DNA of 64,000 nucleotides. It comes from Plastoroseomonas arctica (lineage in GTDB: Bacteria; Pseudomonadota; Alphaproteobacteria; Acetobacterales; Acetobacteraceae). The stretch is taken from contig NZ_JAAEDH010000025.1 in assembly GCF_018128965.1 (NCBI RefSeq), positions 1-64,000 on the forward strand, written 5' to 3'. A program made the position numbers and the translations under genes. Positions 41,015 to 46,075 of this stretch are shown piece by piece. The stretch's first letter is position 1, and the number at the start of each line of letters is the position of its first letter. Under the pieces are notes generated by a model. The model ran no database searches and was not told the origin of the DNA. It was given only the letters and a program-made list of their open reading frames with translations.

Positions 41015-42517
41015 ATGCAAGATGGCATCGCCTGGTCGTCGGACCTTCTCGCCACGGCGCAGCGTTTCGGCCCGCGCGTCGCCGTGACCGATGGCGTGGC
41101 GCAGCTCACCTTCGCCACGCTCGCCGCGCGCGCGCACGGCCTTGCGCATCACCTTCTCGCCATCGCCGCGACGCCCGCCGAACCCATCGCGAGCCTGATG
41201 CCCAACGGCCCCGATGCGGTCATCACCAGCTACGCCATCACCATCGCCGGTTTTGCCGAGGTGCCGATCAACGTCGCTGCCACCGATGCCGAGCTCGGCT
41301 GGTATGCGACACTCGCAAAATTCCGCCGCATCGTCGCGCCGCGCGACCAGGCCGACCGCCTGCGCGCCCTCGGCCTCGACGCGATCGCCGCCGAGGATGG
41401 CGGCGAAAGCACCACGCCCCTGCCGCCCGTGCCCACGGACTCCTGGGGTCGCCTCGCCTTCACCTCCGGCACCACCGGCAGGCCCAAGGCCATCGTGCAT
41501 AGTCATGGCGGCCGTTGGATCGCGCATCTGCTCCAACGCGCGGTGATGCCCTTCGCCCCGCAGCCCGGCGACCGCATCCTGTTGATGACGCCCTTCCCGC
41601 ACGGCGCCTCGCTGCTCACCTACGCCTGGCTTGAAGCCGGCGGCGAGGTCATGCTGCTGCCTGGCGTCGTCGGAGAGCGTATCGCGCCCTTGCTCGAGAC
41701 CAACGCGCTCAGCGCCATCTTCGCCCCGCCCACCGTATTGGCAAAGATCCTCTCGCTCTTCCCGCGCCGCCAGTTCGCCGGCGTGCGCACCATTTTCTGC
41801 GGCACCCAGGCGCTGCTGCCGGACCTGCATGCGCGCGCCACCGCCGCCTTCGGCCCCGTCGTGCGCGTCACCTACGGCATGAGCGAATGCTTCAACCCCA
41901 TCACCATCCTGCCGCCCGATCAGGTCGCAGACGCCATGGCCGAAACCGACGGCACCTCCGGCGCATGCGTCGGCTCGCCCGGCCCCAGCGTCGAAATCAC
42001 CATCGATCCCGAGACCACCGAAATCTCGCTGCGCGCCCGCCAGCTCTACGCCGGCATCATCACTGCGGACGGCTACACCCCCCGGCCCCCCGGCGCCTTC
42101 CACCGCACCGGAGACCTCGGCCGCATCGACCCCCAGGGCCGCCTGTGGCTGATGGGCCGCGCCGCGGACGTCATCAAGACCGGTGGCTACCGCGTGCACC
42201 CCGCCGAGATTGAAACCGTGCTGGAACCCGCGGCCCAGGGCCGGGCGCTGGCCATCGTCACCCTGCCCTCCGAGTACTGGGGGGAAGTCATCGTCTGCGT
42301 CGCCGAGGACGCGCCGGTCGGCTGGGAAGCCGACGCCATCGCACTCGCGGCGCAACTGGCGAAGTACAAGCGGCCGCGCGCCTACCTCACCTTCGCCGCC
42401 CTGCCTCGCAATGCCCAGGGCAAGCTGGTGCGCGCGCGGCTGCGCGAGGCGATCCTCCAGACCCACAGTCTCGAAGACGGCCCGCACCCGCGCCTGAACG
42501 CCATGCCGGGGGCGTAA
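41015..42517 (+). CDS. AMP-dependent acyl-CoA ligase
   Basis: A 500-residue adenylating enzyme. The P-loop is 'LAFTSGTTGRPKAIVHSHGG' (about 145-165), 'YGMSECFNPITI' carries the A5 motif, 'HRTGDLGRIDPQGRLWLMGR' the A7-A8 region, and the C-terminal Lys is in 'LPRNAQGKLVRARL'. It makes an acyl-CoA from an acid, ATP and CoA. Divergent from the CoA-transferase operon. Substrate unknown. Confidence 0.92.
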   Translation: MQDGIAWSSDLLATAQRFGPRVAVTDGVAQLTFATLAARAHGLAHHLLAIAATPAEPIASLMPNGPDAVITSYAITIAGFAEVPINVAATDAELGWYATLAKFRRIVAPRDQADRLRALGLDAIAAEDGGESTTPLPPVPTDSWGRLAFTSGTTGRPKAIVHSHGGRWIAHLLQRAVMPFAPQPGDRILLMTPFPHGASLLTYAWLEAGGEVMLLPGVVGERIAPLLETNALSAIFAPPTVLAKILSLFPRRQFAGVRTIFCGTQALLPDLHARATAAFGPVVRVTYGMSECFNPITILPPDQVADAMAETDGTSGACVGSPGPSVEITIDPETTEISLRARQLYAGIITADGYTPRPPGAFHRTGDLGRIDPQGRLWLMGRAADVIKTGGYRVHPAEIETVLEPAAQGRALAIVTLPSEYWGEVIVCVAEDAPVGWEADAIALAAQLAKYKRPRAYLTFAALPRNAQGKLVRARLREAILQTHSLEDGPHPRLNAMPGA

Positions 42518-42593: not shown

Positions 42594-42665
42594 CTGCGGG
42601 ATGCGGTCCGAAAGGACGCCCGGCGTTGTTTCCCGCCGCCCGCGGCAGAGCATGGGGAGATCCGT

Positions 42666-44936
42666 ATGCCGGAGTCCGAAGCCGAGCTCGACGCCCTCGC
42701 CCTCGCGCTGTTGCGCCGCCTCGGGCTGCCGTCCGGTCCGACGCTGCCGGACGGCCCGACTGGCGGGCCCGACCCGCGCCTGCCCGAACTGCCTCCCTTC
42801 GACAAGCAGGTGCCGGACCTGGTCCGGCCGGCGCGCCTGGCGATCCAGGGCGTGGAATTCACCCAGGCCACGCAGTATTTCACCTCCGGCTTCGGCGAGG
42901 ACAACGCGATCCCCATGGTCGCGCTCAAGCCGATGCTGGTGCGGGCCTACCCCCACGCCATCGCAGGACTGCTCACCGGGGACACGCTCTCCGGCCAGCA
43001 GGTGACCGGCGAACTGGTGCTGAGCCGCTGGGGCAAGGAGGTCTACCGGACCGCCCCGACCCGGCCGGGCGGCGCCCGGCTCGGCCGGTTGCCCGAGCTC
43101 GATCGCACGCTGTGGGACAAGGAGAACGATCTGTGGGTGACGTCGCGGGACGGGCTGTCCCTCACCCACATCCGCGGCAACGCACCGCTGAATTTCTTCG
43201 TCCCGGCCTGGTATCTCCGCGCCGCGCCGACGGTCGTCACGGTGCGGCTCTGGGTCGCCTCGGCGCCGGGCATCGCCGCCGTCGCCTCGCGGCGGCTTGA
43301 CGTGCTGAATGTCGCGGCACCCAGGGTGGCGCTGGTCCGCATCAAATGGGACAACGGCGCGGGCATGGTGGTCACGCCGGCCGATGCCGACATGCTCGGC
43401 ACGCTGCGCCTGGCCGAGCGCATGCTTCCGTTCCCGTATTTCGACACAACCATCCTCGGCGTGGACTACACGCGCAGCGGCAATTTCGGCCAGCTTCCCG
43501 GCAGCTCGGGCGCCTGCAACGCGCTGTGGAACGAGATGCTGGCGCGGCTGAAGGAAACCCGCATCTGGACGCGGCTGTTCCAGCTCGCCGACATCGTCAT
43601 CGGCATCGTGCCGGCGGCGGCAATCCCGGTCGGCCAGGCCGGCGGGGTCAATACCGGCTGCGGCAGCGGCGGCGACGGCGTTGGCGCCTTCTTCGCGGGG
43701 CAGGAGATGACCACCGCGCACGAGCTCGGCCACATCTACCAGCGCGCGCATGTCAACGTGCCCAACGACCCGTCGGACGATCCGAACTATCCCAAATACG
43801 TCAAGGGCTTCGACCGCTCGATCGGCGAGGTCGGGCTGGACGTGGCGCTCTCCCCGCCGACCCTCTACGACCCGGCGACGGCGATCGACGTGATGGCCTA
43901 CACCACGGCGGCCGCGGAGCCGCAATGGATCTCGCCCTATACCTACTCGAACATCCTCGACCGCCGGTCGCTCTACGCGACCAGCCCGGCTGATACGCGG
44001 CGCCTGCGGCCCTGGCTGATCCTGACCTTCGGGATCGAGCGTCTGGCGCGCGGCGGCCGCACCGTGGAGCTGGTCAAGGCGATGGTGGTGGAAGCGGCCG
44101 GTCACGTCGGCGGCAGTGCGACGGCCGGCGAGAGCCCCGTCTCGATCGACCTGCTGGATGCGCATGACCGCATCCTCGCCACGCACCACGCCTACCCGAT
44201 CCGGTCGCAGCCAGGCGGGTGCGGCTGTCATGGCGGCCAGGGTGGCGTGCCCGAGGGCCGCGAGCCCTATCTCACCTTCGTCGAGGCGATCCCGCTGCCC
44301 GACGGCGAGGTCGCGCGCATCACCTTCCACACCGGCGATGCGCCGCTGCTGGTGGTCGAGGCGGGCGAGCCGCCGCGCGTCAGCCTCACCGGACCTGATC
44401 GGGAGGAGGACGGGTTGCACCTGCGCCTCGAGGTTTCGGCCAGCGAAGGGCGCGCATCCACCCTGGTCCTGTTCACTGGCGATGATGGCGAAACCTGGGT
44501 CCCGGTCGTCCAGGATCCGCCGGAGGGGACACCGCTGGTGATCGATCCGCAGCGTCTGCCCGGCGGGTCGCGCTGCCGGTTTCGCGCAGTCGCGACGGCC
44601 GGGCTCCGCTCGGCCACGGCCGAGACGGACAGCTTCGAGCTGCCGCGGCGCGGCCGTGGCCTGTTCGTCCAGTTGGAGACCGACCCTTGCGAGCGAGCGA
44701 CGGTGCGGTTGCGGGCCCTCGTGGATGCGCGCGGCCTGGGCGCGGTCCCGCCGCAGGATGTGCGCTGGGAGTCCGACCGCGACGGCGAGCTGGGGCAGGG
44801 CTTCGAGCAGGTGGCGCGGCTGTCGGAGGGCACGCACGCCATCTCAGCCTCGATGCCGGACGGCCTGGGCGGCCGGTTGACGGAGCGGGCCATCATCATC
44901 ATCGGCGGCCGCCCCCGCCACCTCGGCCCAGCCTGA
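42666..44936 (+). CDS. Metzincin-like metallopeptidase candidate
   Basis: A 756-residue protein without a signal peptide. The start at 42666 has GGGGAGA 6 bases upstream; a GTG at 42570 would add 32 residues. Residues 352-362 read HELGHIYQRAH, a zinc site H-E-x2-H-x5-H as in metzincins but with Gln at the usual Gly. A Met-turn-like 'AIDVMAYTT' follows at about 406-414. Residues 58-70 'LAIQGVEFTQATQ' form a motif seen before some uncharacterised metallopeptidase domains. The last 250 residues look like two or three beta-sandwich repeats, and a 'GGCGCHGG' patch lies at about 518-525. Cellular location and substrate unknown. Confidence 0.6.
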   Translation: MPESEAELDALALALLRRLGLPSGPTLPDGPTGGPDPRLPELPPFDKQVPDLVRPARLAIQGVEFTQATQYFTSGFGEDNAIPMVALKPMLVRAYPHAIAGLLTGDTLSGQQVTGELVLSRWGKEVYRTAPTRPGGARLGRLPELDRTLWDKENDLWVTSRDGLSLTHIRGNAPLNFFVPAWYLRAAPTVVTVRLWVASAPGIAAVASRRLDVLNVAAPRVALVRIKWDNGAGMVVTPADADMLGTLRLAERMLPFPYFDTTILGVDYTRSGNFGQLPGSSGACNALWNEMLARLKETRIWTRLFQLADIVIGIVPAAAIPVGQAGGVNTGCGSGGDGVGAFFAGQEMTTAHELGHIYQRAHVNVPNDPSDDPNYPKYVKGFDRSIGEVGLDVALSPPTLYDPATAIDVMAYTTAAAEPQWISPYTYSNILDRRSLYATSPADTRRLRPWLILTFGIERLARGGRTVELVKAMVVEAAGHVGGSATAGESPVSIDLLDAHDRILATHHAYPIRSQPGGCGCHGGQGGVPEGREPYLTFVEAIPLPDGEVARITFHTGDAPLLVVEAGEPPRVSLTGPDREEDGLHLRLEVSASEGRASTLVLFTGDDGETWVPVVQDPPEGTPLVIDPQRLPGGSRCRFRAVATAGLRSATAETDSFELPRRGRGLFVQLETDPCERATVRLRALVDARGLGAVPPQDVRWESDRDGELGQGFEQVARLSEGTHAISASMPDGLGGRLTERAIIIIGGRPRHLGPA

Positions 44937-44987: not shown

Positions 44988-45959
44988 TCAGTTGTTCAGG
45001 CGGATATTCGTCGTCTCGATGATGCGGCGGAAGTTGGCGGTCTGCTCACGCAGGTAGGTGGTGAAGGCGGCACTGCCGCGCAGGTCCATCTCGATGCCGA
45101 TGCCTGCGACGCGTTCGCGCGCGTCGTTCGAGTCCATGCCTCGCAGGGTGGCTGCCTCGACGATGTCGAGGATCGATCGCGGGGTCGCGGCGGGCGCGAC
45201 GAGTCCGATCCATGCGCCGACGTCGAAGCCCGGAATGGGGGCATCGGTCGCGATGCCCGGGATGCCCGGGGCGAGCGTGCTGCCACGCGCGAAGGAGATG
45301 CCGAAGGGGCGCAGCGAATTGCCGCGGATCAGCGGCTGCGTCGCGGCCAGCGTTTCGATGCTGTAGTCCACCTGCCCCGCGACGACGGCGGTCAGCGAGG
45401 GTGCGCTGCCTTGGAACGGGATGTGTTCGGCCCGTATGCCGAGCGCGGAATTGAACCATTCGATGATGAGGTGTGCAGTCGCGCCGGTGCCGGAGGAGCC
45501 GAAGGTGTAGTGCCCGGGGCGCGCCCGCAGCGCAGCGACGAATTCCGGCAGGGTAGTCGCCGGGAAGGCCGGGTTCGCGACCAGCACGTAGGGCGAGACG
45601 CCGACAAGCGCGACGGCGGCGAAGTCCCGTTCCGTCTCGTAGGGCGTACGCTGGACCAGCGGGTTGATGGTGTAGGGGCCGGAGGAGGCGGCGAGCAGGG
45701 TGTAGCCGTCCGGTGCGGCCTTGGCGACGGTATCGGTGCCGATCATCCCGCCGGCTCCGGCGCGATTTTCCGCGATCACGGCTTGGCCGAGCACTTCCGA
45801 GAGGCGCTGCGCGATGACCCGGCCAGCAAGGTCGGTCGCCTGTCCGGGCGGCCACGGGACGATCAGGCGGATCGGGCGGTTGGGGTAGCTCTGCGCCTGC
45901 GCGGCGGCGATCCCGCCGATCAGGGCGGCGATGGCGAGCAGGGCGATGCGGCGGATCAT
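44988..45959 (-). CDS. Bug/TctC-family periplasmic receptor 2
   Basis: A 323-residue binding protein with a signal peptide ending 'AAAQAQSYPNRPI'. Marks are 'RLIVPWPPGQATDLAGRVI', 'AVIAENRAGAGGMIGTDTVA', 'GHYTFGSSGTGATAHLIIEW' and 'EHIPFQGSAPSLTAVVAG'. It resembles its three paralogues in the window only at family level. It has no adjacent TctAB permease, and its neighbours are a metzincin-like protein and a Tyr-rich exported protein, so its ligand cannot be guessed. Confidence 0.9.
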   Translation of the reverse strand: MIRRIALLAIAALIGGIAAAQAQSYPNRPIRLIVPWPPGQATDLAGRVIAQRLSEVLGQAVIAENRAGAGGMIGTDTVAKAAPDGYTLLAASSGPYTINPLVQRTPYETERDFAAVALVGVSPYVLVANPAFPATTLPEFVAALRARPGHYTFGSSGTGATAHLIIEWFNSALGIRAEHIPFQGSAPSLTAVVAGQVDYSIETLAATQPLIRGNSLRPFGISFARGSTLAPGIPGIATDAPIPGFDVGAWIGLVAPAATPRSILDIVEAATLRGMDSNDARERVAGIGIEMDLRGSAAFTTYLREQTANFRRIIETTNIRLNN

Positions 45960-46075
45960 GGACGTGGCCTCCCGAATGCGTCCCGCGCAAGCTTCGCGCG
46001 CGGTTGCATCCGGCGGCACGACGGGATCGACGACGCTGAGGCTAGCGTCGTCGCCGGGAACCCGCCAGGGGTGCC

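Follow-up and report, generated by a model that had tools for sequence, protein, structure and literature searches.

Gene and features at the locus

The window, that is, the whole stretch of 64,000 nucleotides analysed here, carries on its forward strand a gene that is predicted to encode a large metzincin-type zinc endopeptidase of 756 amino acids. Its start matches the aligned N-termini of its two nearest relatives, a Sabulicella protein (L007) and the product of locus L048, and its stop codon occupies 44934-44936. The gene seems to stand alone, since the same-strand ORF upstream stops at 42517, before it begins, and the next long ORF after it, at 44988-46019, lies on the opposite strand. 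By their look, we take the flanking ORFs to be an AMP-forming CoA ligase (upstream) and a Bug-type solute-binding protein (44988-46019). The following features were located, all on the plus strand:

42655..42660, +, Shine-Dalgarno-like GGGGAG ahead of ATG 42666 (sequence)
42666..44936, +, whole gene, 756 amino acids
42678..42719, +, short N-terminal helix, residues 5-18, low confidence (AlphaFold2 model)
42723..42812, +, Pro/Gly-rich disordered linker, residues 20-49 (pLDDT < 50)
42834..43307, +, N-terminal beta-sandwich with an EFTQATQ motif, residues ~57-214 (model strands, VIA)
43299..43988, +, metzincin-fold catalytic domain, residues 212-441 (predicted model, VIA, Foldseek)
43515..43517, +, Cys284, conserved together with Cys332
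43659..43661, +, Cys332, conserved together with Cys284
43719..43751, +, zinc motif HELGHIYQRAH, residues 352-362, with His352, Glu353, His356 and His362 (family alignment)
43740..43742, +, Gln359 (CAG) at the usual Gly position (sequence, family alignment)
43818..43841, +, family motif SIGEVGLD, residues 385-392 (alignment)
43887..43901, +, Met-turn DVMAY, residues 408-412, with Tyr412 two residues past Met410 (alignment)
43998..44903, +, C-terminal Ig-like domains, residues ~445-746 (model strands, Ig and FnIII matches)
44214..44237, +, GGCGCHGG loop, residues 517-524 (disordered in the model)

Over its full length, the gene shows a dN/dS of 0.23 against the Sabulicella gene and 0.27 against L048, so the protein is maintained by purifying selection; for the catalytic domain the values against these two relatives are 0.21 and 0.25.

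Family, distribution and phylogeny

The window protein has no Pfam or NCBIfam match even at E 10, PF10462 (peptidase family M66) included. It also has no PADLOC match, and a role in anti-phage defence is not supported. Relatives were collected by a genome-contig scan with a four-sequence alignment, which gave 91 pattern hits and 39 confirmed loci in Nitrospirota, Pseudomonadota, Chloroflexota, Bacteroidota, Actinomycetota, Gemmatimonadota, Myxococcota and one haloarchaeon, the last also found among the relatives in plasmid records. The family set consists of these 39 loci, from one genome scan, and one closer relative; the 36-row alignment comprises the window protein and 35 of the 39 loci, leaving out three near copies (L018, L042, L043) and a fragment (L011). 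PF10462 matches 24 of the 36 alignment members at E <=0.01, with L040 (26.6 bits) and L019 (23.0 bits) above the cut-off of 20.6 bits. Across the genomes that carry the window gene (G000), the Sabulicella protein letter for letter (G985) and L048 (G1015), PF10462 finds nothing above that cut-off.

Plasmid records hold six relatives, three of them on Bradyrhizobium plasmids with identical scores, and the phage records searched hold none. A phage origin was accordingly rejected: there was no phage-record match, and none of the pattern hits on viral contigs (3 and 68) was confirmed. When whole genomes were searched with the protein, the window's own genome was the only carrier among 60 relatives and likewise among 385 genomes of the class, and one of two among 398 of the phylum; the family profile matched 3 of the 299 genomes of the family and 4 of the 398 of the phylum, the window's own included in each. 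The distribution is patchy across phyla, and horizontal transfer would be the simplest inference for the spread of the family.

In the 40-row tree, which was built by a quick search, has SH-aLRT values as its sole support and is flagged for long branches at L006, L012 and L021, the window, Sabulicella and L048 proteins form one group (support 100). It lies inside a set of seven rows, likewise with support 100, that also holds Microvirga, Nitrospirota, Nitrospira and Bradyrhizobium proteins. Members of ~1,180-1,330 amino acids (L013, L016-L018, L023, L025, L029-L032, L035 and L044) are longer by 530-630 residues that precede the first common domain; they have no signal-like segment, and two of the five scanned show a TIG/IPT match above cut-off. 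L050 and L052, two more distant relatives from the same genome (G194), have no obvious signal peptide.

Among the open-licence papers listed, judged by title and abstract opening, none names this M66-like family, and none on a metzincin that lacks a signal peptide was found. The Pfam and NCBIfam models tried miss the window protein, and the collected loci would allow a model of the family to be made.

Predicted fold and catalytic residues

The AlphaFold2 model of the whole protein, based on the 36-row alignment, reached a pLDDT of 80.2 and a pTM of 0.82. When the whole model was compared with solved structures by VIA-align, StcE (3ujz) came first (Z 13.3, 307 residues aligned over 58-726, 4.7 A). 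Adamalysins, which matched the middle domain at about Z 13, scored within 1 of it and thus tied with StcE. Foldseek matched the whole model to phage-tail, transglutaminase and Ig-rich chains with a TM of at most 0.16 on the query, and a single-domain model was needed. In that model of the catalytic domain (pLDDT 88.6, pTM 0.88), ADAM-8 was the top VIA match (Z 13.6, 175 aligned, 3.3 A), and the best 50 entries, at Z 12.1-13.6, were all of the ADAM, ADAMTS, TACE or snake-venom type; this alignment of the folds covers the part of the chain where the three zinc histidines lie. Foldseek also placed ADAM-8 first, more weakly than VIA (E 9.9e-5), with four matches at E <=0.001 and a TM of about 0.5. 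StcE was not among the best 50 VIA entries for the catalytic domain alone, nor in the Foldseek best 50 for either model. The N-terminal beta-sandwich matched other beta-sandwich domains by VIA, with Z up to 8.9. Additionally, the family profile searched against PDB sequences found a bacterial Ig domain first (E 0.00014), ahead of serralysins (E 0.0007) and ADAM 33 (E 0.0055), which were matched at the zinc motif; querying the solved structures with the window protein's sequence by itself gave chance matches only.

The earlier note had taken the protein for a metzincin relative and had asked for a structural comparison with metzincins. Both the predicted fold and the profile matches agree with that reading: it is in the predicted model, and there only, that residues 212-441 adopt a metzincin fold, of the adamalysin type, and no clear match to a non-peptidase family, the outcome which that note had named as counting against it, arose. 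Its description of the C-terminal half as Ig-like strands with a GGCGCHGG patch likewise held, this part of the model being almost all strand with the patch at residues 517-524.

The zinc motif with its third histidine, as first read from the letters, is confirmed at residues 352-362, and the sequence VMAY, noted as resembling a Met-turn, contains Met410 of DVMAY, 48 residues beyond His362. The three zinc histidines and the catalytic glutamate of metzincins are present as His352, His356, His362 and Glu353. Invariant in the 36 rows are Glu353, His356, His362, Gly387, Glu388, Gly390, Asp392, Asp408, the Met-turn Met410 and Trp421, while His352 and Tyr412 are kept in at least 90%. The zinc motif goes beyond chance, because its ligands and the Met-turn are kept across the family alignment and the gene has dN/dS values well under one; a chance HExxH motif is ruled out by homology, predicted fold and purifying selection.

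Three members look degenerate from their sequences. The haloarchaeal Natrinema relative (L004:5800-8028, identical with L012) has QEIGH in place of HEIGH and one more residue ahead of the third histidine, and is possibly a pseudopeptidase; L010 has one additional residue ahead of the third histidine, and L013 has HELSH in the zinc motif.

Signal peptide, cysteines and possible routes of release

The absence of a signal peptide, remarked on from the sequence at the outset, was borne out by a crude hydrophobicity test (not SignalP) and proved to be the norm. No stretch of 12 residues without any D, E, K, R, N, Q or H precedes the first domain, even when the reading frame is extended to GTG 42570. 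By the same test, a signal-like segment occurs in seven of 44 sequences, all from Chloroflexota (L036, L037, L039-L043), and not in the other 37, among them the fragment L011, which lacks its N-terminus. As judged by this test, the absence of a signal peptide is the apparent rule of the family.

A C-x(1,2)-C loop, GGCGCHGG in the window protein, is present in 32 of 40 rows. It occurs in 31 of 33 signal-less rows (missing from L012 and L031) and in none of the five signal-bearing rows that are in the tree, out of seven such sequences; the Thermus row, left out of the signal scoring together with the Bradyrhizobium row, also lacks it. Cys284 and Cys332 are both present in 32 of 40 rows, both absent from seven, and one row has one of them. 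A second pair, one cysteine after the third histidine and the other after the Met-turn, shows the same counts (32, seven and one), and the seven rows without it are the window's own clade. Because the cysteines of a pair are lost jointly, disulfides are suggested; these would agree with export and be at odds with a protein that stays in the cytosol throughout. Tests on independent pairs, for joint change of the cysteine pairs and of the loop with the signal trait, could draw on no more than three pairs, with significance out of reach.

Neighbouring genes were surveyed with regard to release. A Pfam scan of 118 of the 140 crude neighbour ORFs (up to two per side of the 39 loci) found, at E 1e-5, no family in more than three of 79 or more than two of 39 proteins; the other 22 comprised 16 neighbours of L037, L041, L042 and L043, taken to repeat those of L036, and six ORFs that were short or very long. 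When 308 flanking ORFs were compared all against all, common neighbours appeared mainly within the signal-bearing Chloroflexota loci, where L036, L037, L041, L042 and L043 share neighbouring ORFs on both sides (up to five loci at -1 and +1). Beyond these, there is one group of four loci (L015, L022, L036, L040) in differing places, and the rest are pairs. Conserved partner genes were thus rejected as an explanation, common neighbours being confined to the Chloroflexota loci apart from the four-locus group and the pairs, and among the scanned flanks of the 39 loci no neighbour gene accounts for release.

Type VI secretion was considered as a common exit and rejected, with the sheath gene VipB in one of three carrier genomes: it is found in the window's genome and is absent from the genomes of the Sabulicella protein and L048, so type VI is not a common route. 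The two VipB genes of the window's genome lie side by side (G000:C9:144099-146647), on a different contig from the window gene. Phage_base_V occurs at five places in that genome, at one in the L048 genome and at none in the Sabulicella genome.

Export by an as yet unrecognised route, in which the N-terminal helix and Pro/Gly linker or the CGC loop would act as the signal, would draw on the helix and disordered linker of the model, on the two co-conserved cysteine pairs, on the near-complete separation of loop and signal segment, and on the type VI sheath genes in the window's genome. It is nevertheless doubtful: the other two carrier genomes have no VipB, common neighbours barely extend beyond one Chloroflexota group, the contrast between loop and signal rests on about one event in the tree, strict C-x-C is missing from four signal-less members (L012, L021, L028, L031), and the CGC loop is disordered in the model.

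A purely cytosolic enzyme, acting for example in protein quality control or regulation, is likewise an unlikely explanation. The 37 sequences without a signal-like segment would suit it, as would the Bradyrhizobium relative with its fused nucleotidyl cyclase domain (annotated in the record; PF00211), a domain that requires cytosolic ATP or GTP. Against this, the fused domain has taken the place of part of the N-terminal domain, perhaps as the product of a chance deletion, the patchy distribution suits an accessory trait, and Ig-like domains and cysteine pairs are typical of exported proteins; together, these last two features argue for an oxidising, extracellular site rather than a cytosolic home.

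Gln359 at the eighth position of the zinc motif

The metzincin motif is written HExxHxxG/NxxH/D, with Asn in lower pappalysins, in the excerpted text of a 2025 structural paper (PMC12237041), while an older paper, likewise in excerpt, calls the motif Gly strictly conserved (PMC3427221). Where metzincins have this Gly (or Asn), the window protein has Gln359. Of the initial description as a Gln at an invariant Gly, the residue itself stands, encoded by CAG, and the invariance does not: across 40 rows, position 8 is Gly in 35, Gln in two, Asn in two and Ser in one. Among these rows, the Gln is found only in the window protein and the 78%-identical Sabulicella protein. Position 8 has undergone at least five changes on the 40-row tree, so that the Gln, which had been singled out as a special feature, is one lineage-limited change among several. 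Two more distant proteins found by profile have Asp (L051) and Ala (L052) at this position, the profile match of L052 covering its C-terminal part only.

The codon at position 8 is CAG in the window and Sabulicella genes and GGG (Gly) in L048, whose product is 75% identical overall to the window protein and 89% to the Sabulicella protein, and which is the sister of the latter on the tree (support 99). Since a Gly-bearing protein is sister to a Gln-bearing one, the Gln either arose once and reverted or arose twice. Gln as the mark of a new family was therefore rejected, L048 having Gly and yet being so close to the Sabulicella protein; with the variation elsewhere at this position, the Gln does not separate the window protein from its relatives. 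Gln359 is unusual, yet no mark of a new kind. In the model, the active-site helix spans residues 347-357 and ends two residues ahead of Gln359. The residue would thus sit at the turn that follows the helix, as a presumably tolerated, lineage-limited change, and Gln at position 8 could mean a disturbed turn toward the third histidine.

That the metzincin scaffold is kept for binding alone, with Gln359 marking lost catalysis, is improbable: a Gln in place of Gly/Asn and the Natrinema relative without its first histidine, a sign that site loss happens in the family, speak for it, but the window and Sabulicella proteins retain every other catalytic residue, the catalytic domain is under selection no weaker than that on the rest of the protein, position 8 is Asn or Ser in rows that keep the three histidines and the glutamate, and it is Ala or Asp in the two more distant relatives.

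Proposed function and its meaning

The window protein is probably a catalytically competent zinc endopeptidase of an as yet unnamed metzincin family, distantly related to M66 and without a recognisable Sec signal. As to zinc binding, activity, substrate, location and release, we infer the following mechanism. His352, His356 and His362 would bind zinc, with Glu353 as the general base; Met410 would make the Met-turn, and Tyr412 may play the part of the tyrosine switch known from astacins. The substrate may be held or positioned by the N-terminal beta-sandwich together with the Ig-like domains at the C-terminus. In view of the missing Sec signal, the protein would remain cytosolic until the cell lyses, or exit by a route not visible here. 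Points that weigh against this reading are the missing Pfam and NCBIfam match of the window protein itself, the possible effect of Gln359 on the turn, the cysteine pairs and Ig-like domains as regards a cytosolic home, the lack of a neighbour gene that accounts for release, and the degenerate-looking members.

A broader proposal, put forward tentatively and with less than even weight, is that the widespread M66-like family consists of mostly Sec-less zinc endopeptidases with a Cys-Gly-Cys loop in a C-terminal Ig-like domain, kept in the cytosol until lysis or some exporter sets them free, the motif Gly being free to change. The Gln is a side issue; what deserves attention is the combination of a missing signal and the Cys loop. 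Large Ig-decorated metzincins are usually regarded as secreted. If the signal-less members are active, these enzymes have a cytosolic or lysis-released branch in several phyla, and Gln can replace the Gly of the extended zinc motif.

Comparison with known systems

The Bradyrhizobium sp. 184 protein (WP_247452611.1) is 48.9% identical to the window protein over window residues 175-751, and differs in having Gly at position 8 and a replaced front end. In this protein (L003:6813-9773), the nucleotidyl cyclase fusion replaces the front of the N-terminal domain; the front end comprises the cyclase domain (PF00211 at the 21.9-bit cut-off) and a sub-cut-off FlgO-like stretch. The plasmids of two further Bradyrhizobium isolates score identically to that of sp. 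184.

Archaemetzincin (M54) has, in the excerpted text of PMC3427221, a conserved Cys after the third histidine and four Cys that bind a second zinc. It resembles the window family as a metzincin with Cys after the third histidine, and 3zvs weakly matches the model of the catalytic domain (E 0.27); it differs in Cys spacing and has no large Ig-like regions, and its pattern HExxHxxGxxHC-X4-C-X-M-X17-C-x-x-C, as given in that excerpt, is absent from the window protein. Lower pappalysins (M43) share a replaced motif Gly, there by Asn (PMC12237041, excerpt). PAPP-A structures are a weaker structural match, at Z ~8.8, and the bacterial lower pappalysins are described as secreted zymogens in part of the text of PMC6949598.

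Adamalysins/ADAM proteins (M12B) give the best domain-level structural matches to the catalytic domain, although at 10-17% identity and with other accessory domains. Unlike adamalysins, the window protein has the astacin-like trait of a Tyr two residues past the Met-turn Met, a feature described for astacins in the excerpt of PMC9848320.

M66 proteins of the StcE and TagA type (PF10462) provide the top VIA match of the whole window model, and two thirds of the alignment, 24 of 36 members, score against their profile, whereas the window protein has neither a PF10462 match nor a signal-like segment, carries Gln for Gly, and belongs to a family with the motif SIGE.G.D and the CGC loop. M66 is typified by exported proteases that cleave O-glycoproteins. 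According to the excerpted text of PMC10847046, EHEC StcE is secreted by type II secretion, while Yersinia entomophaga has an M66/StcE-like protein that assembles into filaments within the cell; the authors of that paper propose that a lysis cassette releases it along with other factors. The Yersinia entomophaga filaments, as reported in that excerpt, serve as a model for an M66-like enzyme that is kept in the cell, and for nothing beyond that.
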